A stretch of DNA of 38,642 bases, from assembly GCA_944382835.1 (NCBI GenBank), contig CALWNP010000024.1, positions 1 through 38,642 on the forward strand, written 5' to 3'. Positions 22,499 to 37,467 of the stretch are shown here, piece by piece. A program made the translations under genes and the position numbers. This DNA is from an uncultured Gemmiger sp. Lineage in GTDB: Bacteria; Bacillota; Clostridia; Oscillospirales; Ruminococcaceae. Position 1 is the stretch's first letter; every line of letters begins with the position of its first letter. The notes below the pieces were generated by a model. It ran no database searches, was not told where the DNA came from, and saw nothing but the letters and a program-made list of their open reading frames with translations.

Positions 22499-22511
22499 CC
22501 TCTCCCCCCTT

Positions 22512-22766: not shown

Positions 22767-22780
22767 GCCCTTCCCTCCCC

Positions 22781-24253
22781 TCAGGCCCGCTGCAGGGTGT
22801 AGGTGATCTTCATGGTCATGCCGGCGTTCTTTTCCACCGGCTGGCTCAGATCGTTGATGGTGGCCAGGTAGGTGGGGCGCAGCCCCAGGGTGACCCCCTT
22901 GCCGTTGGTGGTGCCGGCGGGGTTGATGCCCTTGCCCAGCAGCACCCTGCGCCCCCGGATGGGGATGGCGTGGCAGTTGTAGAGATACCGGCTGGTCAGG
23001 TTGTACTGGATGGCCAGCATCTCGTCGGTGGCGGTGTTCAGCACCACCGAGGGGGCGGTGGCGGTGCCCCCGTCCTGGTACTGGTAGTAGTACAGCCGCC
23101 CGTCGTGGGCGTCGTGGACATAGGGCATGGACAGGCCGTTGGTGGTGATCTCCCGGACCTCGCCGGGGTCAGACAGCCGGATGCGGAAGACCCGCTTGCT
23201 GCCATCGCTGGCCGCCGTGGCCCCCCAGAGGTAGATCCAGCCGTCATAAACCAGCCCGTTGCCGCTGGGGGTGGTGGTGCCGCTGTTGGACACCACCGCC
23301 TGCAAGGTATGGCCGGTCTGGTTGGTGATGCGGTAGCTCTTCAATGCGTAGCTGTCCACATCCAGCTCATAGACCAGCAGCTCCTTGTTGGGGGCCACCT
23401 GGCTGGAGGGAAAGCTGACCAGATAGAGTTTGCGCCGCTCGGCATCATAGCAGCCGCAGAGATAGCTGGTGGAGGTGCTGAGCAGAGCCGGGGTCAGCGA
23501 GACGGTCTTTTCGCTGCGGCAGGGGGGCAGGTTGGCGGCCCCCCTGGCCCAGAACAGCGAGAGCTCCTTGAGCTTGAGGGGGTAGCGCCGCAGGGTGACG
23601 CTGGGGGCGGTGGGGTTGAACTGGGCCAGCAGAAAGCAGTCCTGGCTCTCGTCCAGCTCCAGCAGGTGGCCGGGGGCGGAGAAATAGCTGCCCGGCACCG
23701 TGACGGCGGGGGCGATGGTGCCCGAGAGCTCCACCCCCGGGGTGTAGGCCACCGTGCCGTTGCAGTCCCCGGTGCCCCGGACGGCGGCCTCGGCGCCGGC
23801 CCAGGCGGCGGCCCGGTTGCTCAGGCAGACCGAGGCGATGGTGCCGTTGGCCTGCTGGGTGCCGAAGTCGTAGACAAAGGTGGCGGTGCCGCCCTGGAGG
23901 TCGATGTCGGTCTCCACCGGGTTCCAGCTGCCCTGGACCGGGTTCTGGCCGTTGTTGGCGCCGTTGTACCCGGCGCAGCCGGTGATCCTGGCCTCGGCGG
24001 GGGCAAAGAGAGTGTCGGCATCCCCGCCGATCTTGCGGTCAAAGAGGAGCAGTCCCCCGTAAAACTGGGAGATCAGATCCACAAAGTTTTCCTTGGTATT
24101 GTCGTCCAGCAGGTTGGCCCCCAGGGTGTACATCCCGAAGGGGGTCAGAATCTCCTGCATGGCGTTGGTCACCAGGTTGTCCTGCTCCACCACCCGGGTG
24201 CGGCCGGTGTGCAGGTCGGTCAGTTCAATTTTGGTGTGGCCATGCAATGGCAT
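22781..24253 (-). CDS. Phage tail tip/receptor-binding protein with propeller-like repeats (putative)
   Basis: A 490-residue protein after the tail hub gene, the usual place of the receptor-binding or fibre protein. The N-terminal 35 residues (GHTKIELTDLHTG...) resemble the attachment segment of Firmicute phage tail proteins. The C-terminal half (from about 230) has repeated strands with aromatic and glycine turns (NGLVYDGWIYLWGA, AHDGRLYYYQY, CYDAERRKLYLVSF), like the blades of a beta-propeller. That suggests binding to a cell-surface glycan. ATG 24253 has AAAGGAG 8 nt upstream. No lytic domain is visible. Confidence 0.6.
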   Translation of the reverse strand: MPLHGHTKIELTDLHTGRTRVVEQDNLVTNAMQEILTPFGMYTLGANLLDDNTKENFVDLISQFYGGLLLFDRKIGGDADTLFAPAEARITGCAGYNGANNGQNPVQGSWNPVETDIDLQGGTATFVYDFGTQQANGTIASVCLSNRAAAWAGAEAAVRGTGDCNGTVAYTPGVELSGTIAPAVTVPGSYFSAPGHLLELDESQDCFLLAQFNPTAPSVTLRRYPLKLKELSLFWARGAANLPPCRSEKTVSLTPALLSTSTSYLCGCYDAERRKLYLVSFPSSQVAPNKELLVYELDVDSYALKSYRITNQTGHTLQAVVSNSGTTTPSGNGLVYDGWIYLWGATAASDGSKRVFRIRLSDPGEVREITTNGLSMPYVHDAHDGRLYYYQYQDGGTATAPSVVLNTATDEMLAIQYNLTSRYLYNCHAIPIRGRRVLLGKGINPAGTTNGKGVTLGLRPTYLATINDLSQPVEKNAGMTMKITYTLQRA

Positions 24254-24271
24254 CCATCATTCTCCTTTCTC

Positions 24272-25993
24272 TCACAGCTCCAGCTCCGGGGCCTGCTCGG
24301 CCGGGATATCCACCGCCGGGCCGGCGGGGGTCCAGCGCAGCGGGGCCAGGGTTTCCTGCCCGGTGCGCCGCTGGGGCGTCTGGGGCGCGGCGGACACCTG
24401 CCCGGTCAGGCTGTCCAGCACCGGCCGGGCGGGGGCCGCCAGGGCGGGCGAGGGCAGACGGTCCTCCAACTGCAGGTTGTTGTCCGCGGCGCTGCTCTCC
24501 ACCAGGCTCCGGCCGCTGAGCAGCGCCTGCACCCCGTTGGCCCCCACCGTCACCTGGCCGCCCTCGGCGGTGATCCGCACCGAAAAGATGCCGCTGGTGT
24601 TGGCGGCCACCTCGGCCAGGGGGTAGCACAGGGCCAGGGCGTGCTCCCCCGCGGGCAGGGTCTGGGCCAGGGAGAAATCCAGCGGGGTGCCGTCCAGGTA
24701 ATACGCCACCCGCAGCAGCAGGGTGCCCCCGCTGGCGGCGGGTTGGGCGGAGAGGGGCAGCTGGGCCAGAAAGAGAAGGGTGGTGGCCTGGGTGGTGACA
24801 AAGGCGATGCGGCAGAGCTGCACCTGGGTGGTCCCTGCCGTCACCGGGACCGGGTTGGTGAACCGGTAGGAGAGGGTGCGGCTCTGGTCGGCCTGGGTCT
24901 GCAGCCGGCGCAGGGCGGTGTCGGTGCGGCTGCGGTTGCCCACCAGGTAGGGGTTGCGCCCCACCGCCTTGAGGGTCTGACGGCCCCGGAACTTCCAGAC
25001 CCGGTGGGTCACCAGCATCTCGGCCGAGCCCCCCGCCCCCGGCAGGTCGGTGAGGGTGATCCGGTCGCCGCATTCCAGGCTGGGGTCCCCGGCCATGGTC
25101 AGGGTGGCGGGCACATACCGGATGGCGGACAGGGCGGCAAAGACGGCGTCGGCCACCGCCTGGTTGCGGCCGGTGAGCCCCTTGCCGAAGAGGGGGGCGT
25201 CGGACATCCGCATCTCCAGCCCGCCGGCGGCGGCATCCCCGCAGGAAAAGTCCTGGGCCCCCTCGATGACCAGCGAGGTGTAGCGGCAGCTGTAATCGGC
25301 CACCGTGGCGCCGGTGCGGGCCTCGGGGCCCAGGGCGGTGGAGGGCTGGGCCGAGAAAGCACGGATCACCAGCGCCCCCGCCCGGTCCACCGTGCCGAAG
25401 CCGGCCAGGACCTGGGCGATGGCCCCCACACAGTCCCGGTAGCTCTCGCAGCCGTCCTCCCCGTCCAGCTGGAAGGTCTCGGCGGCGTTGGGGAAGGCGG
25501 CCAGCTCCCCCTCGGTCTGGCCCAGGGTCAGGCCGCACTTTTCGCAGATGCGGCAGAGCATCTGGAAGGGGGTGCCCTGCAGGGCTTCCCCGTCAAAGGC
25601 CTTGTCCAGCAGTAGGGCGTTGTCGTAGGCCTTGATGGAGACATAGAGGGCGGTGCGCTCCGCCTCCGAGATGGTGTAGACCCCCAGCGGCAGCTCGTAC
25701 CAGCTGCCGTCGGCCAGCCGGATGCCGTAGGTCAGGGTCAGCCGGCCGCCGTAGAACCGGTAACGGTTCAGCTGGGTGCGCAGCTGGAAGGCTGCCTGGC
25801 CCAGATAGACGCAGCCGAACTGCAGCTCATCCCCGCTGACGCACTGGTCGTCGATGGTCACCGACCCGCTCATGAGGTCGTCGGCGGTGAACTCCAGGCT
25901 ACCGCCGTCGGCCAGTTGGATGGTGCCGGTGATCCGGTCGGTGCGCACCGGGGCGCGGATGGCCGCCAGATATTGTTGGTTGACTGGGATCAT
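24272..25993 (-). CDS. Phage tail hub / tail-associated (Tal-like) protein
   Basis: A 573-residue protein. The N-terminal 200 residues (beta-rich, with ITGTIQLADG, LPLGVYTISEAE and KAYDNALLLDKAF) match the hub domain of Siphoviridae baseplate proteins of the prophage-endopeptidase-tail type. The remainder is beta-rich with a proline/alanine-rich tail; no peptidase motif is seen. ATG 25993 has GGAGGCAGC. It lies between the distal-tail-like protein and the receptor-binding protein, as in tailed-phage order. Confidence 0.65.
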   Translation of the reverse strand: MIPVNQQYLAAIRAPVRTDRITGTIQLADGGSLEFTADDLMSGSVTIDDQCVSGDELQFGCVYLGQAAFQLRTQLNRYRFYGGRLTLTYGIRLADGSWYELPLGVYTISEAERTALYVSIKAYDNALLLDKAFDGEALQGTPFQMLCRICEKCGLTLGQTEGELAAFPNAAETFQLDGEDGCESYRDCVGAIAQVLAGFGTVDRAGALVIRAFSAQPSTALGPEARTGATVADYSCRYTSLVIEGAQDFSCGDAAAGGLEMRMSDAPLFGKGLTGRNQAVADAVFAALSAIRYVPATLTMAGDPSLECGDRITLTDLPGAGGSAEMLVTHRVWKFRGRQTLKAVGRNPYLVGNRSRTDTALRRLQTQADQSRTLSYRFTNPVPVTAGTTQVQLCRIAFVTTQATTLLFLAQLPLSAQPAASGGTLLLRVAYYLDGTPLDFSLAQTLPAGEHALALCYPLAEVAANTSGIFSVRITAEGGQVTVGANGVQALLSGRSLVESSAADNNLQLEDRLPSPALAAPARPVLDSLTGQVSAAPQTPQRRTGQETLAPLRWTPAGPAVDIPAEQAPELEL

Positions 25994-26002
25994 GCTGCCT
26001 CC

Positions 26003-26350
26003 TTAAAACTCCACCAGGTCCACGCTGATCTCCCAGACGGCGCAGCCCTCCCGGGCGGCCCGGAGGTTGGCGGTGCGCGCCCCGGCATACATGGTGGCGG
26101 TGTTGTAGCTGCCAAAGAAATACTCCACCTGGAACTGGTCGGGGGCGGTGGCGTTGAGGATGGCGGCGCACTGGTCGGTGGATAGCGCCTGCCAGGAGGC
26201 GCTGATCTTGGCGATGCCGCCCCGCACCCGCTCCCGGATCAGCACCCCGTTCTCGGTGCGGCCGGTGTCGGCGCTGTCCAGGTCGGACAGGGTGACTTTG
26301 TACTCGTTGGGGACGGGCAGCGGCGTCCCGTCGATGGTCAGGATGTTCAT
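26003..26350 (-). CDS. Distal-tail-position phage protein (DUF6711-like)
   Basis: A 115-residue beta-rich protein starting MNILTIDG with a central ISASWQALST segment. It sits directly after the tape measure, the position of distal tail (Dit) proteins, but is much shorter than classical Dit. It resembles the small DUF6711-type family in Clostridia phage tails. ATG 26350 has AAAGGAG. Function inferred from position. Confidence 0.5.
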   Translation of the reverse strand: MNILTIDGTPLPVPNEYKVTLSDLDSADTGRTENGVLIRERVRGGIAKISASWQALSTDQCAAILNATAPDQFQVEYFFGSYNTATMYAGARTANLRAAREGCAVWEISVDLVEF

Positions 26351-26363
26351 GGGTGCTCCTTTC

Positions 26364-28109
26364 TCAGCGGCCGCCGCTGCGCAGGGCCCGGCGGTTCTGG
26401 CTGCTGGCGATCACGGTGTCCAGCAGCTCCTCCCCCAGGTAGATGTTGATGGGCTGTCCCTGGCCGCCCAGGGTTTCCAGGGTTTCGGCCAGGGCCTGCT
26501 TGATGGTGTCCAGCGGGGCCTCCACATTGGTGCCGCTGCGCTGGTCCCCCAGCAGGGCCAGGAAAGCCCGGTTGGGCGGGATCACCGCACCGGCGGCCAG
26601 GGCCGGCACCGGCACCGACGCAGCCCGGGACATGCCGGGCAGGACCGACTGAGACTGGCTCCCGCCCACCAGGCCGGCGGCCTTGCCCAGCAGCGAGCCC
26701 ACCGAACTGGCCAGCTGGCTGACCAGGCTGAGGATGCCCTGGATGGCGTCGTGGATGGTCCAGCGAATCCGCTGCCACACCGCGGCCACCGTGTTGGCCA
26801 TGGCGTTCCAGGCGGCGTCCCACTGGCCCCGGAAGGCGGCGGAGAGGAAGTCCGCCAGCCCCCGCAGGGTGATGAGCAGCACATCCACCAGGTCGGTGAT
26901 GACCCCGGTGGCCACCGCCACCCCCTGGGCCGCCATGTCAAAGGCCTGGGCAAAGAGGGGGCCGAAGGTCTGCACCGCCCAGGTCAGGGCGGGGGCCAGG
27001 ACGCTGTTCCACAGGTCCAGCACCGCGGTGCCCACCGCCCCGAAACAGGCCACCAGGTCATCCCAGAGGGGTTTGAGGTGGAGGGTCCAGAACTGGTCCA
27101 GCAGGGCGATGAGGTCCTGCAGCACCGGCTGCACCGCGCTGTGCCAGAGGGCGATGAAGAGGTCACAGAGGGACTGCACCGCCTGGGAGATGCCGGCCAG
27201 CAGCGGCGGGCCGTAGACCTCCCACCCCGCCTGGATGCCGGCCATCATCTCCTGCCAGGCGGTGAGCACCAGGGCCAGGGCGGGGCGCAGCACCGTGTTG
27301 ACCATCTCGGTGGCCACGGTGCAGAGTTTCTGGAAGGCCAGGGTCAGGGTGGAGATGGCGGTGGCTACCGTGCCCCCCACAATGGGGGCGAAGGCCTGGG
27401 AAAAGCTGTTGACCACCCCGGGCAGGAAGGTGGTGTTGAGGTAGTCCAGCAGCGGGGAGAGCCCGCCCACCCACAGGGCGTTCACCGAGGTGCGGATGGC
27501 CTCCATGGCAGCCTGGGAGGCCGTCCGGATCTGGTCCCAGGCCCCCTGCCAGGCGGTGACGGCGGGGGTGTAGTACCCCTTGGTTTTGTCCCAGAAGTCC
27601 GCCCAGGCGTCGGAGAGCTGGGCCAGGATGCCCTGGGTGGCGGCGGGCTCCCCGGTGCTGCCGCTGCTGCCCCCGCTACTCCCCGAGGCGGAGGAAGAGG
27701 TCCCGCTCAGGGCGGACAGCCGCTCGATCTCGTCGAAGGAGGCCAGGCTGCGCACCGCCTTGGCGGTCTTTTGGGCCGCGCTGCCCACCTTGCTCACCGA
27801 GGCGGCGGCCTTGGCCGATCCCCTGGCGGTCTTGCCGGTGAGGGCGGAGACCAGCCCGTCGGCGCTGTCCAAGGCGGCGTCAAAGGCTTTGCCCAGGCTG
27901 CCGATGGCGGGGGTCAGCTCCCTGGCCACCGGCTTGGCCGCCGCCGAAAAGACCGGCTGCAGCTTCTCCATGGCCCGGAACGCCTCGTTTCCCCAGCTGC
28001 TGGTCTGGCGCAGGGTCTGGTTCAGGGCTTCCAGACTGCCCTGCATGCTCTCCACCGACCGGACCGACTGGTTCAGGTCCCCGTCGGCGTCAAACCAGAT
28101 GCTTGTCAA
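26364..28109 (-). CDS. Phage tape measure protein
   Basis: A 581-residue alanine-rich, mostly helical protein. A Ser/Gly linker lies near residues 130-155, and repeated aromatic helical units (WDQIRTA, WQEMMAGIQAGWE, FWTLHLKPLWDDL) follow, as in tape measures, which set tail length and enter the host envelope. At about 0.15 nm per residue, a known family relation, the tail would be on the order of 90 nm. It starts with TTG at 28109 (GGAGG upstream) and overlaps the Gp15 gene by 20 nt. No peptidase or lysozyme motif was noticed. Confidence 0.75.
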   Translation of the reverse strand: MTSIWFDADGDLNQSVRSVESMQGSLEALNQTLRQTSSWGNEAFRAMEKLQPVFSAAAKPVARELTPAIGSLGKAFDAALDSADGLVSALTGKTARGSAKAAASVSKVGSAAQKTAKAVRSLASFDEIERLSALSGTSSSASGSSGGSSGSTGEPAATQGILAQLSDAWADFWDKTKGYYTPAVTAWQGAWDQIRTASQAAMEAIRTSVNALWVGGLSPLLDYLNTTFLPGVVNSFSQAFAPIVGGTVATAISTLTLAFQKLCTVATEMVNTVLRPALALVLTAWQEMMAGIQAGWEVYGPPLLAGISQAVQSLCDLFIALWHSAVQPVLQDLIALLDQFWTLHLKPLWDDLVACFGAVGTAVLDLWNSVLAPALTWAVQTFGPLFAQAFDMAAQGVAVATGVITDLVDVLLITLRGLADFLSAAFRGQWDAAWNAMANTVAAVWQRIRWTIHDAIQGILSLVSQLASSVGSLLGKAAGLVGGSQSQSVLPGMSRAASVPVPALAAGAVIPPNRAFLALLGDQRSGTNVEAPLDTIKQALAETLETLGGQGQPINIYLGEELLDTVIASSQNRRALRSGGR

Positions 28110-28707
28110 TGGGGGTTCCTCCTTTCCTGCCGTCCAGCAGCGCCCGCAGCCGGGCGCGCTCGGCTTTTTCGGCGTCGCTCATCCGGGGGCGCAGCTCCAC
28201 CTCGGCCCGGTGGGTGCGGTAGAACTCCAGCTCCCAGGGTTCCAGCCGCTTGCCCCGGCGCAGCTTGTCCCGGATGCCCACCACGGTGGAGAGGGTGCCC
28301 TCCCCAATGCCGGCAAACCAGGCCAGGAAGGTCCACCAGTGGAGGTAGGGCAGAGCCCGGACCTCGCAGCCGGCGGCCTTGTTCACCCCCGAGACAATCA
28401 GGGGGGCGTCCTGGTCCCAGTCCAGCAGCTTGGGTCCGGTGCGGCCCTCCTCCCGGCGGCCGCCGGCCAGAAATTCGGCCAGGTAGTCGGTGGCGGCGGC
28501 GTAGCTGGCGGGGGGCATCGTCTCAAAGGCCCGGTAAAAGAGGTGCAGGGCGATGTACCACCGCTCCTCGGGGGAGAAGTCCGCTCCCTTCTCCCCTTCC
28601 AGCCAGCCGATGATGTCCAGGATGTCCCGGTAATCGGTGTTCAGCTCGTAACGGCGGCCGTCCAGCAGAGCGGTGCGGGGCAGCCCCCAGGCGGCGGGGG
28701 CGCTCAT
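28090..28707 (-). CDS. Bacteriophage Gp15-family protein (tail assembly)
   Basis: A 205-residue protein with the Gp15-family core: YELNTDYRDILDI near the N-terminus, then LHLFYRAF, DWDQDAPLI and LHWWTFLAWFAGI in the middle, and a charged C-terminus. Gp15 lies just before the tape measure in many Firmicute siphophages and is thought to act as a tail-assembly chaperone. ATG 28707 overlaps the preceding stop (ATGA). Confidence 0.75.
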   Translation of the reverse strand: MSAPAAWGLPRTALLDGRRYELNTDYRDILDIIGWLEGEKGADFSPEERWYIALHLFYRAFETMPPASYAAATDYLAEFLAGGRREEGRTGPKLLDWDQDAPLIVSGVNKAAGCEVRALPYLHWWTFLAWFAGIGEGTLSTVVGIRDKLRRGKRLEPWELEFYRTHRAEVELRPRMSDAEKAERARLRALLDGRKGGTPIDKHLV

Positions 28708-29168
28708 TCGCCCCGGGCGGCGCGGGCCTGCTCGGCGTCGGCCACCGCCCGGGCCGCGGTGCACTCCATGTTGCGCCGGGCCCCCGCCTGCAGCACCGGG
28801 GTCAGGGCTTCCAGCAGGTTGCCGATGACCCGGTTGCCGTTTTTGCCCGCCCCGGCCAGATTGACCCCCTCCAGAATGTCGTCAAAGTCGTTCTGGGGGC
28901 CAAAGATCCCGGTGAGCATCGTCTTGACCTGTTTGTCGTAGCCGGCCAGCATCGCCAGCCGCTCCTCCATCCGGGCTTCTTCCGAGAGGTCCTGCCGCTC
29001 TTCCAGGGCCTTGTCCCGCCGGGCCAGCTCCTCCTCCAGATCCAGCAGGGGCTGCCGGGCGTCAAAAAACCGGTGGTAGAGGTTGGGGTCGGTGGGGTTG
29101 AAGCGGAGAATCCCCCGCCCGTTGATCTGGAATTCCTCCATCCCGATGTCAATGTTCAGTTGCTGCAT
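28704..29168 (-). CDS. Putative tail assembly chaperone
   Basis: A 154-residue acidic helical protein with an N-terminal MEEFQINGRGILRFNPTDP segment, a DUF6673-like pattern for proteins between tail tube and Gp15. This is the slot of tail assembly chaperones. It couples to the Gp15 gene by an ATGA overlap. GGAGGG precedes ATG 29168. No slippery heptamer for a frameshift was evident near the overlap. Confidence 0.55.
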   Translation of the reverse strand: MQQLNIDIGMEEFQINGRGILRFNPTDPNLYHRFFDARQPLLDLEEELARRDKALEERQDLSEEARMEERLAMLAGYDKQVKTMLTGIFGPQNDFDDILEGVNLAGAGKNGNRVIGNLLEALTPVLQAGARRNMECTAARAVADAEQARAARGE

Positions 29169-29211
29169 AAATCCCTCCTAGTTGTTCCCGCCCACCCGCC
29201 CGCAGATGCCG

Positions 29212-29685
29212 TCAGGCGGGGCTGAAGGTCTTGCTCTCGATGTCAAAGGTGCCGGTGGTCTTGACCCCGGTGTAGTGGAGGTTGAAGGGGATCTGGTAGC
29301 CGGTGGTGTCGCCGCCGTAGCTGACGATCTCCACATAGACCTCCTCCTTCACCGCCGGGTAGCTGCCGCCCTGGTCGCCCCAGAGCTTGACCTCCACCAC
29401 GTCGGTCTTGAGCTCGTCCAGCACCAGGTCGCCGTCGATGATGGCCTGCAGCCGCTCGAAGAGAGGGTCCCCCTCCTCGGCGTAGTAGGGGGCCACCTCC
29501 CCCTGCTTCTGGTAGCTGTCGATGACCACCGAGGTCTGGCCCAGGATGTTGGACTTCTTTTCCACATTGGCGGTCATCTCGGGGGAATACTCCTCCAGGT
29601 CGGCGCCCAGCCGGACATAGCTGTCGGGCTCCTCGCCGAAACCGGCGTTGAGGTAGTGGGCCATGTATTTGCGTTGAATCTTCAT
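29212..29685 (-). CDS. Phage major tail tube protein
   Basis: A 157-residue protein in the tail tube slot, starting MKIQRKYMAHYLN with the EEYSPEMTANVEKKSNILGQ segment common to Firmicute tail tube proteins of this class. It ends in a beta-rich stretch (TGTFDIESKTFSPA). The ATG at 29685 is 2 nt beyond the preceding stop; the frame is open further upstream but overlaps that gene. Confidence 0.65.
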   Translation of the reverse strand: MKIQRKYMAHYLNAGFGEEPDSYVRLGADLEEYSPEMTANVEKKSNILGQTSVVIDSYQKQGEVAPYYAEEGDPLFERLQAIIDGDLVLDELKTDVVEVKLWGDQGGSYPAVKEEVYVEIVSYGGDTTGYQIPFNLHYTGVKTTGTFDIESKTFSPA

Positions 29686-29686
29686 C

Positions 29687-30136
29687 TCATGCCTCCCATT
29701 GCATGGTGTATTCGGCCTGCAAGGCCATGGTGTAAAGGGCGGTGCCCTCGTCCCGCATCCGGTCCAGCCGGCCGGTGCCGGCGGTGACGGTCTCGGCCTC
29801 GGGGTCGGTGTTGCCGAAGCGGGGGGCGGTGCCGGCGGCGCTCTGCTGCGCCACCCACTGCTGCAGTTCCAGCAGCCAGGCGGCGTTGGCCGCCGAGGTG
29901 CCGGCGGCACCGGGGGCCAGCGGCAGCACCAGGGACAGGGTAAAGCGGCAGCGGCAGCGCTGGGTCACGATGCCCAGCAGGTTTTCCCGCCGGGAGAGCA
30001 CCTCCACCCCGCCGGGGCGCAGTGCCCCCTCGCCGCTGCGGCCGGTGGTGTAGTCCACCCGCAGCTGGCCCACCCGGTCAAAGCCGGGGGCGGTTTTCAG
30101 CCAGGCGCACAGCTGGTCCAACAGATCGCTCTGCAT
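29687..30136 (-). CDS. Phage minor capsid / tail completion protein
   Basis: A 149-residue protein; the closing ALYTMALQAEYTMQWE strand pattern and the preceding RMRDEGTALY are typical of head-tail joining or tail completion proteins found just before the tail tube gene. ATG 30136 has AAAGGAGG. Assigned by position and fold-like pattern; no catalytic motif. Confidence 0.5.
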   Translation of the reverse strand: MQSDLLDQLCAWLKTAPGFDRVGQLRVDYTTGRSGEGALRPGGVEVLSRRENLLGIVTQRCRCRFTLSLVLPLAPGAAGTSAANAAWLLELQQWVAQQSAAGTAPRFGNTDPEAETVTAGTGRLDRMRDEGTALYTMALQAEYTMQWEA

Positions 30137-30152
30137 CCCTGCGCCTCCTTTC

Positions 30153-30563
30153 TCAATTGGTCAGGCTGTGGGCACCGGTGCCGCCGCTGGTCCACCAGCC
30201 GCCGGCCTCGGTGTGGGTGACGATCCCCCGCAGGGTTTTGCGGTCCACATACTGCACCGCCGCCACCCCCGGGGTGTTGGCGGGGGAAAAATCGGCCCAG
30301 CCGGCGTAGTCCAGCACCGGGCCCACCCCCTCCACCACCCGGTCCCCGGGAAAGAGGGAGAACTCCCCCACCCCCGCCGGGATGACCAGCAGAAAGGACC
30401 CGGCCCCCTCGGCGCCGTCGCTGTCCATCGTTTCCCGGCGGCGGCTGTCAAAGAAGACCCCGCGCAGCAGGGTGCGCTGCACCGTCCCGGCGTCGTGGTC
30501 GGGGTGGTAGAGGGTGACGGTCTGGCGGCAGAGGGACCAGCGGAAGGGAATCTTCTCAGCCAT
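30153..30563 (-). CDS. Phage head-tail joining protein (DUF6751-like)
   Basis: A 136-residue protein with a beta-barrel-like pattern (TVTLYHPD, TLLRGVFFD, FPGDRVVEG). Proteins of this size and place are stopper or neck proteins in Firmicute siphophages. ATG 30563 has GGGGGGTGG upstream and overlaps the preceding gene by 8 nt. Confidence 0.5.
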   Translation of the reverse strand: MAEKIPFRWSLCRQTVTLYHPDHDAGTVQRTLLRGVFFDSRRRETMDSDGAEGAGSFLLVIPAGVGEFSLFPGDRVVEGVGPVLDYAGWADFSPANTPGVAAVQYVDRKTLRGIVTHTEAGGWWTSGGTGAHSLTN

Positions 30564-30921
30564 GGTCCACCCCCCGTTCCATCACCAGGAAGTCCTTGGC
30601 CAGATGGCGGTAGAACTGTTCCCGCAGATAGAGGGTGGTGGCGGAAAGCTCCTGCGGGGCGGTGTAGGTCTCGGTGACGCTGCCCACGCTGAGGGAGGCA
30701 AAGCCCCGGCGGGCGTCCTCCTGGTCAAACTCATACATGGCGTCGGCGATGGCGCACAGGGCGTTGTCCTCGGCGTCCTCCACCCCGGGGCGGGGGTGCA
30801 CCCGGAAGAGGTGCTTGAACTGGTTCAGCTTAGCCTCCGCCCGCCGGGCATAGCGGGGGAACTGTTCCTCGGGGATGTACTCCCCCAGGTATTTGTCGGT
30901 GTAAAAGGCGAAATCTGCCAA
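30556..30921 (-). CDS. Phage head-tail connector (adaptor) protein
   Basis: A 121-residue helical protein directly after the capsid gene, the position and size of gp6/gp15-type connector proteins. N-terminal FYTDKYLGEYIPEEQFPRY and a middle CAIADAMYEFDQ helix fit that group. It starts with TTG at 30921 with GGAGG 7 nt upstream. Confidence 0.55.
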   Translation of the reverse strand: MADFAFYTDKYLGEYIPEEQFPRYARRAEAKLNQFKHLFRVHPRPGVEDAEDNALCAIADAMYEFDQEDARRGFASLSVGSVTETYTAPQELSATTLYLREQFYRHLAKDFLVMERGVDHG

Positions 30922-30933
30922 GCGACCGCCTCC

Positions 30934-31797
30934 TTACGCCTTGAACTTCGCCAGCACCACCTTGGCCTCGTTGGACAGCACCGCCACATAGAACTCGTCG
31001 GCGGTGATCTCGGTGACCCGGGCCTTGGGCTTGCGCTCGGTTTCCACATTCACATCCCGCTTGCGGTAGATGGTCAGGGCCGGGGCCTCGTCCTCCACCT
31101 CGGGGTCGGTTTCCAGCTTGACGATGGGGCAGGCGTAGCAGTTCACGCTGCTGACCTGGACCTGGGGCACCTTCAGCGAGGGCACCACCCGGCAGCCGGC
31201 GATGATGCCGATTTCCCCCGAAACCATGGTGCCGGCCTGGTACTTGTCGGCGCTGAGGAAGTCGGGGTCCTTGCGCAGCTGGGTGACCTGCTTGGGGTGG
31301 ACAAAGATCACCTTGTCGCTGCCCTGTTCCTCCTGGAAGAGGTCCAGCGCATCCACCAGGCCGCTGTAAGAGAGGTTGGCGGCCTTACCGTCATAGATCA
31401 GGCTGGCGGTCTGCAGGGCGTCCATGCAGTCGTTGTCGATCTTGGCGGCGATGGACATGGCCAGCTGGGTGTTGGCCTCCCCCACCGGGTTGCCGTAGCC
31501 CGAGAGCACCGCCTCGTCGCTGAGGGAGATGCCCTTCATCGCCTTTTTGACGGTGGCCTTGCGGGTGGAGGTGGTCATCTGTTCGATGGAAACCTCCTGG
31601 CCCTCGGCCACGTCGCTGGCGTCCCCGATGTAGGCATAGGCGGGCACCGTGATGGTGTCGCCGGGCACCCCCATCAGGGTGTCGTCAATCTTGGCGAAGG
31701 GGGCCACCCGCAGCTTTTTGGGGATGCGGGCGGACACCATATCCCCCATGACTTCGGGATCGATGAGGTTTGCGAGTTTGGTCATAGAATCTGCCAT
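30934..31797 (-). CDS. Phage major capsid protein (N4-gp56-like)
   Basis: A 287-residue shell protein. N-terminal TKLANLIDPEVMGDMVSARI, the TITVPAYAYIGDA segment and FVHPKQVTQLRKDPDF belong to the N4-gp56/HK97-fold capsid group. There is no visible delta domain and no protease gene, so it would assemble without head maturation cleavage. The start is the ATG at 31797 with AAAGGAG 9 nt upstream, not the ATG at 31836, which overlaps the next gene. Confidence 0.8.
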   Translation of the reverse strand: MADSMTKLANLIDPEVMGDMVSARIPKKLRVAPFAKIDDTLMGVPGDTITVPAYAYIGDASDVAEGQEVSIEQMTTSTRKATVKKAMKGISLSDEAVLSGYGNPVGEANTQLAMSIAAKIDNDCMDALQTASLIYDGKAANLSYSGLVDALDLFQEEQGSDKVIFVHPKQVTQLRKDPDFLSADKYQAGTMVSGEIGIIAGCRVVPSLKVPQVQVSSVNCYACPIVKLETDPEVEDEAPALTIYRKRDVNVETERKPKARVTEITADEFYVAVLSNEAKVVLAKFKA

Positions 31798-31835
31798 AGC
31801 ATTTGTCTCCTTTGTTGTGATGTGGGGCGGGGGCA

Positions 31836-31997
31836 TCAGCCCTCCCGCAGGCGGCGGTATTCCTCGGGGTCGGTCCGTTTCAAGGCCAGCCGTTCCCGGT
31901 AGCTCATCCGGGCAAAGTCCTCGGCGCTGGTCTGCACCGGGGTGGTCCCGGTGGACGCGGCGTAGGGTGCGGGCCGGTTTTTCTCCTGTTCTTCCAT
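31836..31997 (-). CDS. Small phage protein of 53 residues between portal and capsid
   Basis: A short gene with a strong AAAAGGAGG site upstream of ATG 31997 and a TGA at 31838-31836. The product starts MEEQEKNRPAPYAAST, is disordered and charged in its first half, and ends in a predicted helix with MSYRERLALKRTDPEEYRRL. It occupies the place of the scaffold gene. A short helix with a disordered leader could be a minimal scaffold or a remnant of one; this is inference. I do not recognise the family. Confidence 0.65.
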   Translation of the reverse strand: MEEQEKNRPAPYAASTGTTPVQTSAEDFARMSYRERLALKRTDPEEYRRLREG

Positions 31998-32012
31998 CTT
32001 CTTCACCTCCTT

Positions 32013-33350
32013 TTACCCTTGCTGACCGGCGGCCGGCATGTACCGGTCCCGGATGGCCTGCAGGTCCTGGGGCGTCTTGTGGGGCAGGTCAAAGTACCAG
32101 GCCAGGGCCAGCTCGGGGCGCAGCAGCCCGTCGGTGACCATCTGGCGGTACTCCTCCCAGGTGCGGGTGCGGTCGTAGAGCACCCCGTCCCCCCAGTCCA
32201 CCGCCAAAGCGGCGTCCAGGTCCAGGGGTTCCCCGGCGCAGAGGCCGTAGACCCGGCCCAGGCTGTCGCAGAGGGTCAGCGCCTCCCGCAGCCCGTCGGC
32301 CCACATCTGCTGGAAGTCCTGGATGGTCAGGCTGTAATCTCCCTGGCTGGAGGTGATCTCGGTGGCGGTGCGCTCGGTGGCCTCCACCTCGCTGAGAATC
32401 CCCCGCTTGAGGCCGATGAGGCTCTCACACCCCCGCAGGATGTCCTGCTTGCGGGCCAGAAAGCTCTGCTCCCGCAGCGCCGGGCTGAAGACGGTCACCC
32501 CCAGGTTGGCGGGGTCGTCGGGCAGCCCCACAAAGAGGTCATCCTGCAGCGAGCGGCGGCCGGTGCCGTCCTCCCGCAGCAGGTCCTCCGAGGCAAAGAC
32601 CCGGGAAGCGCCGTTGGCGAACTCCTGCTGGAGCTGGCGTTCGGTGCGGGCCAAGCTGTGGATCAGCCCCACCGCCGGGGCGAAGACCGACACCGCATCG
32701 GCGGAGCCGTCCACACAGTTGAGCAGCGGGGTGCGCAGCGCCGCCAGCCCCACCCCCGGCACCCCGGGCAGCAGCAGGTTGGGCTTGAGCCCGGCGGTCT
32801 GGGGCAGGGTGTCCAGCGGTGCCTCCCGGCCCAGGACCTCCCCCGCCATCTCAAAGAGCCGGGTCTCGATGAAGAGCCCATCCGCCCCGGCGGTGCGGCG
32901 TTCCAGCAGGGCGTACTGCCGCCCGCCGCCGGCCAGACGGCTCATGGTGCCCACCGTCCGCAGCCGGCCCCGGGCATCCCGGGCCAGGGGGGCGAAGCAG
33001 TCCCGCCGCACCGGCACAAAGTCAAACCCGGCGCCGGACAGCACCGGCTTGAGCAGGCATTCCCCGCCCACCAGGGCGTCCTGCACCGCCCTGCGGCGGA
33101 TGGCGTCCAGCGCCTTCAGGTTGCCCTGCTGCCAGCTGGCCATGGAGCTGCCGGGCAGGATGCGGGCCTCGTACTCGGCAAAGACGGTGCGGCAGAGCTT
33201 GCTGACGATGAGCACCGGCAGCCGGCAGTCCGCCGACTCGCCGGGGCGGGGCACGGCATAGTAGAGATCATTCCACTCCCGGATGGCGGCGCGCATCCGG
33301 GGGGTGGTGGCGTCGGCCTTGCCAAACGCCTGTTCCAGAAAGGTTTTCAC
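32013..33350 (-). CDS. Phage portal protein
   Basis: A 445-residue protein of the A118/SPP1-gp6-like portal group: N-terminal RMRAAIREWNDLYY, then LVGGECLLKPV, and a C-terminal EVEATERTATEITSSQGDYSLTIQ segment characteristic of these portals. It forms the ring through which DNA enters the head. GTG 33350 is chosen (GGAGGAG upstream); the frame is open up to the terminase stop. It follows terminase directly, the standard order. No MuF-type minor head gene follows, which is unusual. Confidence 0.8.
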   Translation of the reverse strand: MKTFLEQAFGKADATTPRMRAAIREWNDLYYAVPRPGESADCRLPVLIVSKLCRTVFAEYEARILPGSSMASWQQGNLKALDAIRRRAVQDALVGGECLLKPVLSGAGFDFVPVRRDCFAPLARDARGRLRTVGTMSRLAGGGRQYALLERRTAGADGLFIETRLFEMAGEVLGREAPLDTLPQTAGLKPNLLLPGVPGVGLAALRTPLLNCVDGSADAVSVFAPAVGLIHSLARTERQLQQEFANGASRVFASEDLLREDGTGRRSLQDDLFVGLPDDPANLGVTVFSPALREQSFLARKQDILRGCESLIGLKRGILSEVEATERTATEITSSQGDYSLTIQDFQQMWADGLREALTLCDSLGRVYGLCAGEPLDLDAALAVDWGDGVLYDRTRTWEEYRQMVTDGLLRPELALAWYFDLPHKTPQDLQAIRDRYMPAAGQQG

Positions 33351-33389
33351 AAACTCCTCCTTTTGAGGGCGCGGTCTTTTCCCGGGCAA

Positions 33390-34628
33390 TCACTGCCCGC
33401 GGCGGCGCCAGACGCTTTCCAGCGCATACCGGACCGCGTCGATGTGATGGTTGTTCAGGTCGGGATACCCCGGCAGCACCTCACCGGTGCGGGGGTCCCG
33501 CTCATATTCGTACTCCGAGAACTCGGCGGCGGTGTCGGGGCAGCGGGCCGGGTCGATGACGATGGCCGCCAGGCTTTGCAGCCATTTCATACTGCCGGTC
33601 AGGCTGCCGGGGCCCTTGTGGGCGGCCCGGCAGGGCAGCCCGAAGGCCCGGTAGTCGGCGCAGCTCTTGGGCTCGGCGGCGTCGGCGGTGAGCAGGTCCC
33701 CCGTCCCCAGCCCCCGCGCCAGCAGCAGGGCGGCGGTTTCCCGGTTGGGGGTGCGGTGGCGGGTCAGCTCATCAAAGAGGTAGAGGGTGCGGCGGGCAGG
33801 GTCGTACCCGGCGGCGTTGTAGGCCCAGGGGTCGGGATACCAGCCCCAGTCCACCCCGTAATAAATCCGGGAGACCCCCTCGAGGACCTCCTCCGGGATG
33901 GCCTCCAGCCGCAGGTTGTCAAAGACGGCGGCGCCGCTGCCCACCACCTCCCCCAGGTACTCGTGGCGGTAGGCCACCTCGTTGGCGGTGCGCAGCGCCT
34001 CGGCGTCGGCCAGGAACCGCGCCCCCAGCCAGCTGCGGGGCAGCTCCCGGTAGGTGGAGTGGTGAACCAGCCGCCCCGGCGCCGGGGTGCGGGCGTAGCG
34101 GTTGACCCAGCTGCGGGCCATGGCCGGGGGGTTGAAGCTCTTGAAGGCCAGGGCGAAGTCCCCGCCCCGGAAGACGCTCTGTTCCACGTTGCGGACCTCC
34201 TCCGGCCCGTCGTACTGGTCCAGCTCCTCGAACCAGAGCAACCCCAGCGAGCCGAAGGGCAGCTTGAGGCTTTTCAGCTTGCCGGCGTCGTCCAGCCCGA
34301 AGAAGAGGATCTTCTGCCCGGTGGGCAGATAGGTGCACTCCATGGGGGAGAGGGTACACCGGAACCGGCTGGACAGCCCCAGCACCCCGATGGCCCAGCA
34401 GACCTGGGCATAGACGCTGGTGCGCAGGGTGTTGCCCACCTTGCGCAGCACCAGGGCGTGGCAGTCGGGATGGCGCAGCAGCTGCACCACCAGCTCCAGC
34501 GAGATGTAGCTGGACTTGCCCGAGCCACGCCCGCCCTTGGCCACCACCTCCCGCACCTTGCCGCCCCGCACCGCCCGGTGCACCGGCCAGAAGGCCGGCG
34601 GCATCAGATCTTTCAGACGGATTGTCAC
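33390..34628 (-). CDS. Phage terminase large subunit (PBSX/Terminase_3 type)
   Basis: A 412-residue DNA-packaging motor. The ATPase has Walker A GGRGSGKS (32-39) and Walker B LLWFEELD (130-137). The C-terminal RNase H-like nuclease keeps acidic residues at Asp260 (YYGVDWG), Asp316 (TADAAEP) and Asp397 (HHIDAVRYA). All key residues are intact, so the motor looks functional. ATG 34628 has GGGAAGGGAGGAAGG upstream. Confidence 0.92.
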   Translation of the reverse strand: MTIRLKDLMPPAFWPVHRAVRGGKVREVVAKGGRGSGKSSYISLELVVQLLRHPDCHALVLRKVGNTLRTSVYAQVCWAIGVLGLSSRFRCTLSPMECTYLPTGQKILFFGLDDAGKLKSLKLPFGSLGLLWFEELDQYDGPEEVRNVEQSVFRGGDFALAFKSFNPPAMARSWVNRYARTPAPGRLVHHSTYRELPRSWLGARFLADAEALRTANEVAYRHEYLGEVVGSGAAVFDNLRLEAIPEEVLEGVSRIYYGVDWGWYPDPWAYNAAGYDPARRTLYLFDELTRHRTPNRETAALLLARGLGTGDLLTADAAEPKSCADYRAFGLPCRAAHKGPGSLTGSMKWLQSLAAIVIDPARCPDTAAEFSEYEYERDPRTGEVLPGYPDLNNHHIDAVRYALESVWRRRGQ

Positions 34629-34655
34629 ATCCTTCCTCCCTTCCCTGGGGGCGGC

Positions 34656-34859
34656 CTAGTCGCCGTCCACAATCACCACCCCCTCGTCGGTGGGGTCGCC
34701 CTCCCCCATCCGCAGATATTTGTAGATCATTTCGAGGGCACGCAGTTTGTCGGCCGGCTTGATGGGCGGGCCTTCGGGGTTGCCCAGATCGGCAAAGGCG
34801 ATCCCCGCAAGCTCCGCCAGGACGTGGTCCGGCGTGATCCCCCGTTGCTCCTGTTGCAT
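34656..34859 (-). CDS. Short terminase small subunit-like protein
   Basis: A 67-residue protein with HVLAELAGIAFADLG and the KPADKLRALEMIYKYL helix, matching the C-terminal oligomerisation part of terminase small subunits. The N-terminal DNA-binding helix-turn-helix of normal 130-180-residue subunits is absent. ATG 34859 has a strong AAAGGAGG. Either a truncated gene or a reduced form that does not recognise a specific pac site. Directly upstream of the large subunit. Confidence 0.6.
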   Translation of the reverse strand: MQQEQRGITPDHVLAELAGIAFADLGNPEGPPIKPADKLRALEMIYKYLRMGEGDPTDEGVVIVDGD

Positions 34860-34946
34860 GCACCCTCCTTTCCGGGCGGCGGCCCATGGGATCAAAAAAA
34901 GCCGCCGAGTCAGGCAGTGCCTGTCTCAACAGCTTTCGACGGTATC

Positions 34947-34975
34947 ATTCTAGCATGGGGTGGGTGGAATTACAA
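34947..34975 (-). promoter_or_regulatory. Promoter of the phage structural operon
   Basis: Minus strand: TTGTAA (34975-34970), 17 bp, TAGAAT (34952-34947), in the 190-bp gap between the regulator and the terminase genes. The DUF1492-like product would be expected to act here if it resembles late-gene activators. An 8-bp stem (35002-35009 with 35021-35028) lies between the regulator stop and this promoter, without a U-tract. Confidence 0.6.
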
Positions 34976-35049
34976 GGATATGTTACGGAATAATGTATTT
35001 TCTTGGGGTATCCGGGCGGAACCCCAAGGAAGTGCAGGGGAAAAGTGTG

Positions 35050-35469
35050 TCAGGATTCTGAAATCTTCATCTCCCGCAGCCCCTGGTCATAGAGCTGCCG
35101 CACCCGGCGGGGCACCAGATTAAGGGCCTGGGCGATCTGTTCGGTGGTTTGGCCCAGGACGTAGCGGCGGTAGAGGGCATCCCGGGGGGCCGCGGCCCGG
35201 ACCGACCCCAGGGCCCGGACGATCTGGGCCCGGATGGCCATGCAGCGGTCCACCTGGGTTTCCAGGTCGGCGCGGGCGGCGTCGATGCGCTCCACCGCCC
35301 GGGGCAGCCGATCGATGGAGGGGGCGCCGCCGCCCCCGGTGCCCCCCAGGCCGGCGCTGACCCGCTCGGCGTCGGCGCGGAGCCACTGCAGTTCCTCCAG
35401 CAGGGTGTTTTCCTGCTGCATGGCATCCTTATAGCGGGCCAACCACTCCATCTTTTCTTTTTTCTCCAT
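35050..35469 (-). CDS. DUF1492-like phage transcriptional regulator (RinA/ArpU type)
   Basis: A 139-residue protein. The N-terminal two thirds are helical and charged; the C-terminal part reads RDALYRRYVLGQTTEQIAQAL followed by VRQLYDQGLREM, a sigma-region-4-like helix-turn-helix. Such proteins precede terminase genes in Firmicute phages and switch on the packaging and structural operon. ATG 35469 has GGGGAGGAG, and a consensus promoter lies upstream. No other phage regulator is present. Confidence 0.75.
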   Translation of the reverse strand: MEKKEKMEWLARYKDAMQQENTLLEELQWLRADAERVSAGLGGTGGGGAPSIDRLPRAVERIDAARADLETQVDRCMAIRAQIVRALGSVRAAAPRDALYRRYVLGQTTEQIAQALNLVPRRVRQLYDQGLREMKISES

Positions 35470-35545: not shown

Positions 35546-35561
35546 TAGGTGGGTTACGGCT

Positions 35562-35819
35562 GCTTTTTGTTAGGCCCGACGGGGACCGTAGGCTTCTCGC
35601 TTCCGGTTTCGGAGTGGACCACCCCGAGAGCGATCCTCCCCCGAAGGCGTTCCTTTTTGTGACCAAAAAGGAACCGAAAAAGTCCCACCGTTCCGATGCG
35701 GTGGACGCACGGCCAGGGCTGTAAGCCCTGGACTCCTCAAGGCCCCCACCCCTGACGGGGGCCTTGAGCAAGGTGGGGATTGAGAATCAAGGGCTTCGCC
35801 CTTGATAATCCTTCTCTAT
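35562..35819. repeat. Left arm of a large imperfect inverted repeat with five hairpins
   Basis: A ~258-bp arm that matches the reverse complement of 35970-36232. It holds, in order: an 11-bp stem GTTCCTTTTTG/CAAAAAGGAAC (35649-35674); CCACCG/CGGTGG (35685-35704); CCAGGGCT/AGCCCTGG (35713-35731); a 12-bp stem CTCAAGGCCCCC/GGGGGCCTTGAG (35736-35768); and ATCAAGGGC/GCCCTTGAT (35786-35806). No gene is recognised in it. Confidence 0.85.
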
Positions 35820-35826
35820 AAAATAA

Positions 35827-35887
35827 AAGCCAGAAACAAATGGAAAGGCGTGTGGCCTCTCGGTTGTTTCTGGCTTATCTTTTTGTG
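35827..35887. terminator. Central hairpin of the inverted repeat, bidirectional-terminator-like
   Basis: A perfect 13-bp stem AAGCCAGAAACAA/TTGTTTCTGGCTT (35827-35839 with 35864-35876) and a 24-nt loop that can form a small inner stem. It is followed by ATCTTTTTG on the plus strand and by TTATTTTATAG on the minus strand. No protein gene in this window ends beside it. Confidence 0.65.
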
Positions 35888-35969
35888 TTACTACTTTCGG
35901 AAGTTTTTCTAAAACCCTTCCTCTAGGTTTGGATTCCGGTTCCGGGGTAGCCTCCGTAGGTGGTGAGTA

Positions 35970-36232
35970 ATAGAGAAGGTTTGAAAAGGGCGAAGCCCTT
36001 TCTCTAATAAGGTAATTCCTTGCTTTTGGCCCCCGTCCGCGGTGGGGGCCAAAAGGGGACCAGGGTCAAAGACCCTGGTCGGGCGTCCACCGCCTCGAAA
36101 CGGTGGAACTTTTTTCGGTTCCTTTTTTGGTTACAAAAAAGGAACGCTTTCGGGAGGATGCCGCCCTCGGGGTGGTCCACCCCGACAACCCCAGCGAGAA
36201 ACATCCGTCCCCCGTCGGGCCTATCGGAAAGC
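35970..36232. repeat. Right arm of the large imperfect inverted repeat
   Basis: A ~263-bp arm, inverted relative to 35562-35819. The same five hairpins appear in mirrored order: AAAGGGC/GCCCTTT (35985-36001), TTTTGGCCCCC/GGGGGCCAAAA (36024-36054), GACCAGGGTC/GACCCTGGTC (36058-36080), CCACCG/CGGTGG (36087-36106) and a 12-bp stem GTTCCTTTTTTG/CAAAAAAGGAAC (36118-36145). Several stems differ from the left arm on both sides so that pairing is kept. Confidence 0.85.
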
Positions 36233-36268
36233 ACCCGCTTTCCCCCTCGCTTTTCCCCCAAAACGAGG

Positions 36269-36306: not shown

Positions 36307-37467
36307 ATGTACAGTCATTTCATCCAATTCACCATTCCCAAAATCGGCCAGGCCCTGGTGGCTGTGGTGCTCTACCTCAACTTCCTGGCCCTGCCCTTCG
36401 TGGCCCCCTTCCAGGGGGCCTACCCCCTGGTCTACTACGGGCTGCCCCTGCTCCTGCTCTGGGGGCTGTCCTTCCTCAGCCGCAACCCGCTGGGCTTCGG
36501 GATGGTCTTTGTGGGGCATCTCACCGCCCTCTACCTCCTCTGCGACGGGCTCTCGCTGCTGGCCGGCCTGGCGGGCGGTCCGCTGTCCTCCCTCTGGCGG
36601 ACGGTGTACTGCGGTGGGGCGCTGCCCTGGGTGGTCACCCTGGCCCTGGTCTTCTGGGGACGGCGGCGGGCGGTGCAGCTGCGGCTCACCCGCTACCGCA
36701 TCACCACCCCCAAGGCCCTGCCCGGCGGCAGGCTGCGGGTGCTCCAGATCAGCGACCTCCACCCCGGCCCCACCATGAACCACACCCGCACCCCCGAACT
36801 GCGGGACCTTGTCACCCGGGCCGCCCCCGACCTCATCGTCTTCACCGGGGACATCTTTGACGAGTACACCACCCGGGCGGATTTCGACGCCTTCTGCCGC
36901 TTTTTCGGCCAGCTCACCCCGCCCCTGGGCAAATACTTTGTCTACGGCAACCACGACCTGGGCCACTACTGGACCACCGCCTGCTTCACCCGGCTGGAGC
37001 TGGAAACCGCCCTCCACGCCGCCGGCATCCAGATTCTCGAGGACCAGTCGCTGCCCCTCCTCTCGGGGATTCCCCTGCGGGTTGTGGGGCGGCAGGACTG
37101 GCTCTTCTGCCAGGGCAAGCGGCTCTCCCCAGTCCAGCTCCTTCCCCAGGGCCCCGACGAGGTCTACACCCTCTGGCTGGACCACGAGCCCCGGGAACTG
37201 GCCGAGGCCGCAGCCGCCGGGGCCGACCTGATCCTCAGCGGCCACACCCACGGCGGACAGATCTGGCCCACCGGGCTGCTGGCCCGGCTGTTCCGCTACA
37301 ACGAGCTGAACTACGGCCTCAAACAGGTCACCCCCACCTGTGCCGCCGTGGTCAGCGGAGGCACAGGCACCTGGGGCTACCGCTTCCGCACCGAGGGCCG
37401 CACCGAACTGGTCCTGGTAGAAATTGACAGCACTTCCTCTTGTTGCCTGAGCAACAGCGATCTCTGA
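36307..37467 (+). CDS. Membrane-anchored metallophosphoesterase (YkuE/YaeI-like)
   Basis: A 386-residue protein. The first ~120 residues carry four hydrophobic segments; the calcineurin-like phosphoesterase domain then has all metal-binding motifs: SDLHPG (DxH), FTGDIFD (GD), YGNHD (GNHD) and SGHTHGGQ. The domain end is followed by a short cysteine-rich tail. Relatives such as YkuE and YaeI act on lipid-linked or phospholipid-derived phosphates, but the substrate here is unknown. ATG 36307 has only a distant GGGAG. Only a weak hairpin inside the last codons separates it from the dehydrogenase gene, so the two may be co-transcribed. Confidence 0.88.
   Translation: MYSHFIQFTIPKIGQALVAVVLYLNFLALPFVAPFQGAYPLVYYGLPLLLLWGLSFLSRNPLGFGMVFVGHLTALYLLCDGLSLLAGLAGGPLSSLWRTVYCGGALPWVVTLALVFWGRRRAVQLRLTRYRITTPKALPGGRLRVLQISDLHPGPTMNHTRTPELRDLVTRAAPDLIVFTGDIFDEYTTRADFDAFCRFFGQLTPPLGKYFVYGNHDLGHYWTTACFTRLELETALHAAGIQILEDQSLPLLSGIPLRVVGRQDWLFCQGKRLSPVQLLPQGPDEVYTLWLDHEPRELAEAAAAGADLILSGHTHGGQIWPTGLLARLFRYNELNYGLKQVTPTCAAVVSGGTGTWGYRFRTEGRTELVLVEIDSTSSCCLSNSDL

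Follow-up and report, generated by a model that had tools for sequence, protein, structure and literature searches.

The window analysed here, a stretch of 38,642 nt from an uncultured Gemmiger sp., carries a non-coding element of about 690 nt (Table 1), one copy of a repeat family. As an earlier sequence-only reading had stated, the element lies between a gene for a regulator with a sigma-70 region-4 domain (phrog_36; 35050-35469, - strand) and a gene for a calcineurin-like phosphoesterase (36307-37467, + strand). A phage structural block with portal, terminase, major head and tail genes occupies positions 22322-35469 and is flanked by chromosomal genes, a rhomboid-like gene (21520-22176) on one side and the phosphoesterase gene (from 36307) on the other. 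None of six phage-block proteins tested was an integrase, and the block could be what is left of a phage or a module of one that has been domesticated.

Table 1. Positions of the element and its parts in the window
Feature	Positions	Strand	Sequence or remark
Whole element: arm L, middle and arm R as an inverted pair	35550-36243		limits set by the outermost hairpins, approximately +-10 nt
Arm L	35557-35820	+	inverted repeat
Hairpin A (S1)	35649-35674	+	GTTCCTTTTTG / loop TGAC / CAAAAAGGAAC
Purine linker CGAAAAA	35675-35681	+	mirror of the S1 purine strand; third strand of the proposed triple helix
GTC	35682-35684	+	pairs with loop bases GAC (35661-35663) as pseudoknot
Hairpin B	35685-35704	+	CCACCG / TTCCGATG / CGGTGG
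Hairpin C	35713-35731	+	CCAGGGCT / GTA / AGCCCTGG
Hairpin D	35736-35768	+	CTCAAGGCCCCC ... GGGGGCCTTGAG
Hairpin E	35786-35806	+	ATCAAGGGC TTC GCCCTTGAT
Middle	35820-35970		~150 nt
Arm R	35970-36243	-	inverted partner of arm L, diverged to 78% identity
Arm R read on the + strand	36107-36145	+	AAC 36107-36109, pyrimidine loop TTTTTTCG 36110-36117
Arm R stem	36118-36145	+	GTTCCTTTTTTG / GTTA / CAAAAAAGGAAC; loop bases GTT pair with AAC; telomerase-like order
Outermost hairpin, right end	36226-36243		GGAAAGC ACCC GCTTTCC

The two imperfect inverted arms with five shared hairpins, which the same reading had described, are borne out by complementarities of 75% over an ungapped 113 nt (35557-35669 with 36125-36237), 76% over an ungapped 109 nt (35665-35773 with 36018-36126) and 87% over a third stretch of 31 nt. 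The outermost hairpin of the right end has a weaker counterpart at about 35552-35569, and the folding energy lay 8 SD below shuffled sequences for arm 1 (folded as DNA) and 5.5 SD below them for arm 2 (folded as RNA). Likewise, all four compensatory changes that had been quoted are present in the sequence, namely CCAGGGCT/AGCCCTGG versus CCAGGGTC/GACCCTGG, CTCAAGGCCCCC versus CTTTTGGCCCCC with the complements changed likewise, CAAGGGC/GCCCTTG versus AAAGGGC/GCCCTTT, and a T5/A5 versus a T6/A6 stem. Beyond these, our analysis found a pseudoknot between a loop and a linker, a mirror relation between linker and stem, and a conserved middle of 150 nt with a terminator-like hairpin.

A mobile repeat family had been one of three options named for the element, beside a pair of structured RNAs and a recombination substrate, on the understanding that the idea would fall if no other copies existed and covariation was not significant; a nucleotide search of the arms in relatives returned many copies. 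With arm L as query (35562-35820), blastn gave 51 whole or partial matches in the own genome, a draft of 2.52 Mb in 83 contigs with 90.9% completeness, while a covariance model of an 89-position core gave 49 matches at E<=1e-5 and 69 at E<=0.01, the weakest 20 of which score 26-35 bits; since several contigs end within or near copies, the true number may be higher. Core-model matches occur in 27 of 35 Gemmiger genomes, 1 to 58 apiece, the richest being G009 (58), G010 (51), the own genome (G000, 49), G025 (42) and G015 (39), and copies within one genome fall into few sequence types. The arm L query matched 22 of 61 relatives at E<=0.001, all of them in the own genus. Two copies with the same pseudoknot and mirror linker (L068, L070) were found in G265, a genome of another genus of the same family. 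A model search through the order (295 genomes, best 14 candidates per genome) gave matches in the own genome and in G265, and an exact-pattern search of 297 family genomes found 2 and missed G012 and G008 though both are positive by the model, so further copies may exist outside the genus. A scan of genome contigs yielded at least 98 stretches, of which 71 parse as the element and 27 do not, the latter coming from other groups except for L122 (an Oscillospiraceae MAG); neither of two matches on viral contigs parses as the element. The counts over all loci given below refer to 215 distinct contexts, which were drawn from 327 rows (260 kept after filtering), include at least two false ones, and count a genome present under two names once only where the 180 nt around the core were identical. 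In agreement with the remark that no known family could be recognised, Rfam 15 gave no match at the gathering cut-off in the window or in 19 relative loci. Near-matches such as Clostridiales-2 (18.3 bits, cut-off 58.6) were rejected, as they did not recur at the element in ten relative loci.

In the own genome the element takes two forms. One is an inverted pair some 670 nt long, of which the middle makes up about 150 nt; the other is a solo arm that has a leader of its own and of which 12 were aligned. Among 51 pairs of neighbouring cores less than 900 nt apart, 49 face inward, 2 stand in tandem and none faces outward, and 113 cores lack a partner inside 900 nt, several of which lie close to the end of a contig or locus. 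The tandem exceptions are same-strand neighbouring cores in L129 (4247/4333) and L209 (4631/4941). The cores of the own pairs listed are 356-427 nt apart; in the other pairs most distances fall within 270-470 nt, over a full range of 27-695 nt. By eye, the alignment of the 18 own pairs shows the right half of the middle in 17 and a terminator-like hairpin of the GCCAGAAACA...TGTTTCTGGC type, with T runs on both strands, in 15; inversion of the middle between the arms was not seen in these 18. In several own copies hairpin A lacks its loop and 3' strand, which are replaced by a second insert, likewise rich in hairpins and about 130 nt long (L034 7152-7290, L036 742-874, L037 1505-1643, L039 5103-5241, L040 from 673, L046 5047-5178 and 5616-5754), and internal deletion forms of the pair retain the outer ends only (L035 2645-2844, L043 9124-9236). 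Two candidates for an autonomous version with a gene between arms 0.9-4.5 kb apart were considered and set aside; the genes flanked by arms were a response-regulator-like gene (by eye) in one, and genes of 104 and 845 aa in the other.

Covariation was assessed with a model and alignment of the cores, which had been proposed as a check of the fold. The counts are based on 18 cores from an initial alignment of 28, namely those whose stem is full and whose loop has four bases; excluded were ten in which the loop has six bases, the stem is shorter, hairpin C is broken or an end is cut. Across the 18 cores 99.4% of 501 base-pair cells are paired, compared with 35-56% when partners were slid by one to three columns; 20 of 28 pairs have changed on both sides, and in none has a cell changed on one side only. 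Four of five covariation measures were above all 500 shuffles, while the fifth, the number of further pair types, reached 28 versus 31.0 in shuffles. Moreover, hairpin A takes part in a pseudoknot, in which the final three bases of its loop pair with a triplet past the linker. This pseudoknot exists in the variants GAC/GTC, AAC/GTT, CAC/GTG, GCC/GGC, CGC/GCG and GGC/GCC; in the 18 cores two of its three pairs covary and all of its cells are paired. All three pseudoknot pairs are present in 180 of the 215 contexts, and a further 28 represent an arm subtype with the linker AAAAACCG and no pseudoknot. The remaining 7 comprise two apparent false matches (L161 and window position 36229), two copies with stem indels (L131, L034) and three with a base mismatch.

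The linker between hairpin A and the pseudoknot strand repeats, level by level, the stem's purine strand in the backward direction from the pseudoknot, so that linker and stem occur in mirror pairs such as AAAGAG/GAGAAA, AAAAGA/AGAAAA, AAAGAA/AAGAAA, A4/A4, A5/A5 and A6/A6. In 35 distinct pseudoknot-bearing combinations, two of them from G265, the mirror agrees at 196 of 204 positions; shuffled linkers gave a mean of 152 and a maximum of 172 in 5000 trials and never reached 196, a result that is not to be read as a probability as the combinations share descent. Where purines are mixed, as in 20 combinations, the mirror register scored 5.45 of 5.85, and the best of four direct registers reached 4.70. 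A is matched with A and G with G at levels 1, 5 and 6, apart from one G/A crossing, two C in the stem and five C in the linker, and level 7 is in most cases (17 of 28) occupied by the first C of the linker. Since the stem pairs covary as well as the linker, three strands change together, and by its sequence the linker is in register with the stem as expected of a third strand. In the orientation of the arm it would act as a purine third strand. The complementary strand (the + strand for arm R) reads pseudoknot strand, pyrimidine loop, stem, loop and stem, an H-type order as known from triple-helix pseudoknots of the U.A-U / C+.G-C kind. The fold may thus contain a triple helix, and the joint changes suggest that selection keeps a folded strand in a three-stranded knot, probably for recognition by some enzyme or binding partner. 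The sequence-only reading had already taken covariation between the arms to imply selection. The family-wide pair counts, the pseudoknot and the three-way changes argue for this view, although the window alone was insufficient proof, because paired changes in simple hairpins can also arise by palindrome correction through template switching. Duplication followed by random change, which had been named as a possible source of the similarity between the arms, is unlikely, as neither the pseudoknot nor the three-way changes would result from it.

Wobble pairs are rare throughout the fold. In 207 distinct copies G.U makes up 19 of 5359 paired positions, divided into 2 of 2062 (stem A), 0 of 532 (pseudoknot, without the AAAAACCG subtype), 6 of 1212 (hairpin B) and 11 of 1553 (hairpin C), while eleven distinct tRNAs of the same loci, used as a control, have 18 of 233. 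Non-pairs number 8, 8, 24 and 99 in the same four parts, and A.C, which corresponds to G.U on the other strand, was counted 0 times in A, 5 in B and 20 in C. The stem finder used for these counts prefers Watson-Crick pairs; the alignment count, made without it, likewise has no cell altered on just one side, and shows five U-G cells in one pair of hairpin C. Rarity of G.U favours folded DNA or palindrome correction over RNA, and the folded strand may be DNA rather than RNA, though a low G.U content is compatible with RNA too.

With genes called by a hexamer gene caller built for this analysis, 214 of 215 copies lie outside genes. Gaps between divergent genes hold 7 of 87 pair arms and 3 of 72 solos (both neighbours known), compared with 64 of 230 background gaps of at least 150 nt, a background that includes gaps holding copies. 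In 15 own pairs, taken from 23 listed pairs or part-pairs with ends set by hand, a stop codon lies 15 nt or less from the outer hairpin at 19 of 22 gene-end flanks, and the 7 gene-start flanks keep 28-95 nt to the element; divergent genes flank two of these 15, the window copy and a deletion form. Own solos are sense to the preceding gene in 10 of 12 cases, and over all loci solos between co-directional genes are sense in 27 and antisense in 19.

Orthologous sites in other species mostly lack the element, which supports the mobile-repeat option. These comparisons cover part of the matches listed per site and run between species whose flanking genes are about 66-90% identical. At the window site, of 18 relatives that match the phosphoesterase gene, the element was absent from all 14 examined within the stretch compared, and in six of these the upstream sequence instead has a terminator-like hairpin together with the last part of a different gene. 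It was likewise absent from 22 relatives at site F, three of the stretches being shortened by contig ends, and from 11, 5 and 4 relatives at sites C, D and E, respectively; the far-side gene is also shared in 2 of the 11 at C and in none at D and E, which thus test the upstream gene alone. At site A the element is present in 4 of 27 relatives, with a fifth (G032) possibly cut by Ns, and at site B in 3 of 11, at a place further along. At site C, G032 and G015 keep the convergent partner gene, and a short gap with a native bidirectional terminator-like hairpin takes the place of the own pair. The own solo at site F sits between a stop codon and a terminator-like hairpin. Against pure mobility, copies from different species often follow one and the same gene. 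The upstream gene is shared by 112 copy pairs, no fewer than 3 of which fall within a single locus; the upstream side alone was used for this count because a downstream stretch may contain the partner arm. At the gyrB-like site, too, copies follow the same gene across species with different element sequences, and such cases could reflect shared hot spots, or retention with sequence turnover. One own locus, L031 (G000:C33, 327-17332), holds ten arm matches in 17 kb. The genes there resemble recF, gyrB and gyrA, and the replication origin may lie close by.

In summary, we regard the element, with moderate confidence, as a non-autonomous mobile interspersed repeat of Gemmiger with folded-strand arms that would be recognised by a mover encoded elsewhere. 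Its unit would be an inverted pair of structured arms of about 260 nt around a middle with a terminator-like hairpin, next to which a solo-arm form exists. The arms would act as a folded single strand, of which a protein or RNP mover would recognise the pseudoknot and the neighbouring hairpins, and the unit would be pasted into intergenic gaps, often directly behind stop codons, where the terminator-like middle, if it works as a terminator, could replace the native one. A more specific version, which we put forward tentatively and consider rather doubtful, is that the signal of the mobile repeat is an intramolecular triple-helix pseudoknot in single-stranded DNA, read by an undescribed transposase or nucleic-acid-guided enzyme; such a structure would leave wobble pairs almost absent.

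Candidates for the mover were sought among transposases. The own genome gave no match to Y1_Tnp (PF01797). Of the 35 genus genomes 19 have one, and its presence is unrelated to how many copies of the element a genome holds; G012, for example, has 16 element matches and no Y1 gene, and G026 has 8 Y1 genes and no element. A protein search for RAYT-like proteins, which found genes that the Y1 family search had missed, was positive for 18 of 35 genus genomes, including G028, where the element has 28 matches, and gave no match in the own genome, G009, G010, G025, G015 or G005; the genomes are drafts and neither search was exhaustive. The RAYT-like proteins score 65 and 62 bits with NCBIfam NF047646 (cut-off 80). 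None of 30 RAYT-match loci, some of which are two pieces of one gene, carries the element within about 1.5 kb, nor does any of 8 IS200-type loci carry it nearby, and a RAYT or other Y1 transposase was rejected as the mover on the grounds of these loci and of the absent relation to copy number. A RAYT-like Y1 gene of 153-253 aa occupies one inter-gene site in ten Gemmiger genomes (L259, L260, L264, L269, L270, L275, L280, L281, L282, L284), flanked by what we take to be gyrB- and gyrA-like genes. TnpB (PF07282) had no match in the own genome, was over the cut-off in 2 of 35 genomes (G019, G001) and scored less strongly in 6 others, G015 and G010 among them; a TnpB link by way of omega RNA was rejected, both genomes over the cut-off holding just 3 element matches each. 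A target-site duplication, for which a check at the copies had been suggested, was not found in 15 own pairs, where the longest shared end word averaged 4.60 versus 4.73 after permutation with ends accurate to about +-10 nt.

Inverted doublets, extragenic placement and a fold of the single strand are features of REPINs (PMC3116915), and the Gemmiger element shares with REPINs and BIMEs the inverted doublet (49 of 51 close pairs), the extragenic position (214 of 215), many copies, pairing-conserved single-strand hairpins and a lack of coding capacity. In contrast, its arms measure about 260 nt and are not short single palindromes, and it has the pseudoknot, the mirror linker and the terminator-like middle. 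Cognate REPs normally flank the RAYT gene (PMC2817692), whereas the own draft genome gave no RAYT-like match and none of the RAYT-match loci is flanked by the element, for which reason we do not file it as a REPIN member. The best reading is a structured non-autonomous repeat that is REPIN/BIME-like in layout. A RAYT-driven REPIN family whose transposase was lost, or missed in the drafts, would fit this layout and the RAYT-like genes in genus genomes such as G028, yet we consider it very improbable in view of the missing matches in the five richest genomes and in G005 and of RAYT loci that stand apart from the element.

MITEs, like the Gemmiger element, are short, non-autonomous and present in high copy number with inverted ends; here, however, the inverted ends are whole structured domains and no target-site duplication was found. 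Pneumococcal BOX and RUP elements are similarly modular intergenic repeats with predicted folds, from which the element is set apart by bacterium and size. With the pseudoknots of telomerase RNA, SAM-II and preQ1-II the strand opposite the arm shares the H-type order, a pyrimidine loop in register with the purine strand of the stem, and C opposite G-C and U opposite A-U. The element differs from them as a genomic repeat that is neither a single gene nor a riboswitch, with G.U nearly absent and a three-stranded form that is predicted from sequence. To our knowledge, three-strand covariation in a natural genomic repeat was not known before; our literature search found no case of this kind, and no publication that describes a similar repeat for Gemmiger or its relatives. 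The element may be present, without a name, among the candidate RNAs of PMC8040213.

Two further explanations were considered. The element could be a structured 3'-UTR or antisense RNA, serving as a stabiliser, processing signal or protein-binding site, that is selected at gene ends, so that the copies would form a regulon and not the outcome of selfish spread. The ends that abut stop codons, the sense orientation of most own solos, the copies behind the same gene in several species and the strand opposite the arm, whose order is that of canonical RNA triple-helix pseudoknots, all fit this explanation. We nevertheless think it unlikely, since G.U pairs are far rarer than in the tRNAs, the sense bias is weak over all loci and orthologous genes are mostly without the element. 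Alternatively, perfect stems could result from palindrome correction by template switching together with gene conversion among copies, the fold itself being unselected. Whole-pair swaps without any pair changed on one side, and the small set of sequence types per genome, would follow readily from such a process; template switching inside a hairpin, however, should yield neither the covariation between loop and linker nor the mirror relation of the linker, and this explanation appears to us improbable.

If the reading as a mobile repeat with a three-stranded signal is true, three strands change together between copy types while the partner keeps recognising the fold. Through the family, one candidate triple-helix pseudoknot would then be available for chemical testing in dozens of naturally occurring versions, and the repeat could place a terminator-like module behind genes, among other sites between a recF-like gene and its neighbour and in the gap that separates gyrB- and gyrA-like genes. 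It would also be a pointer to a new way of spreading in a common gut genus.
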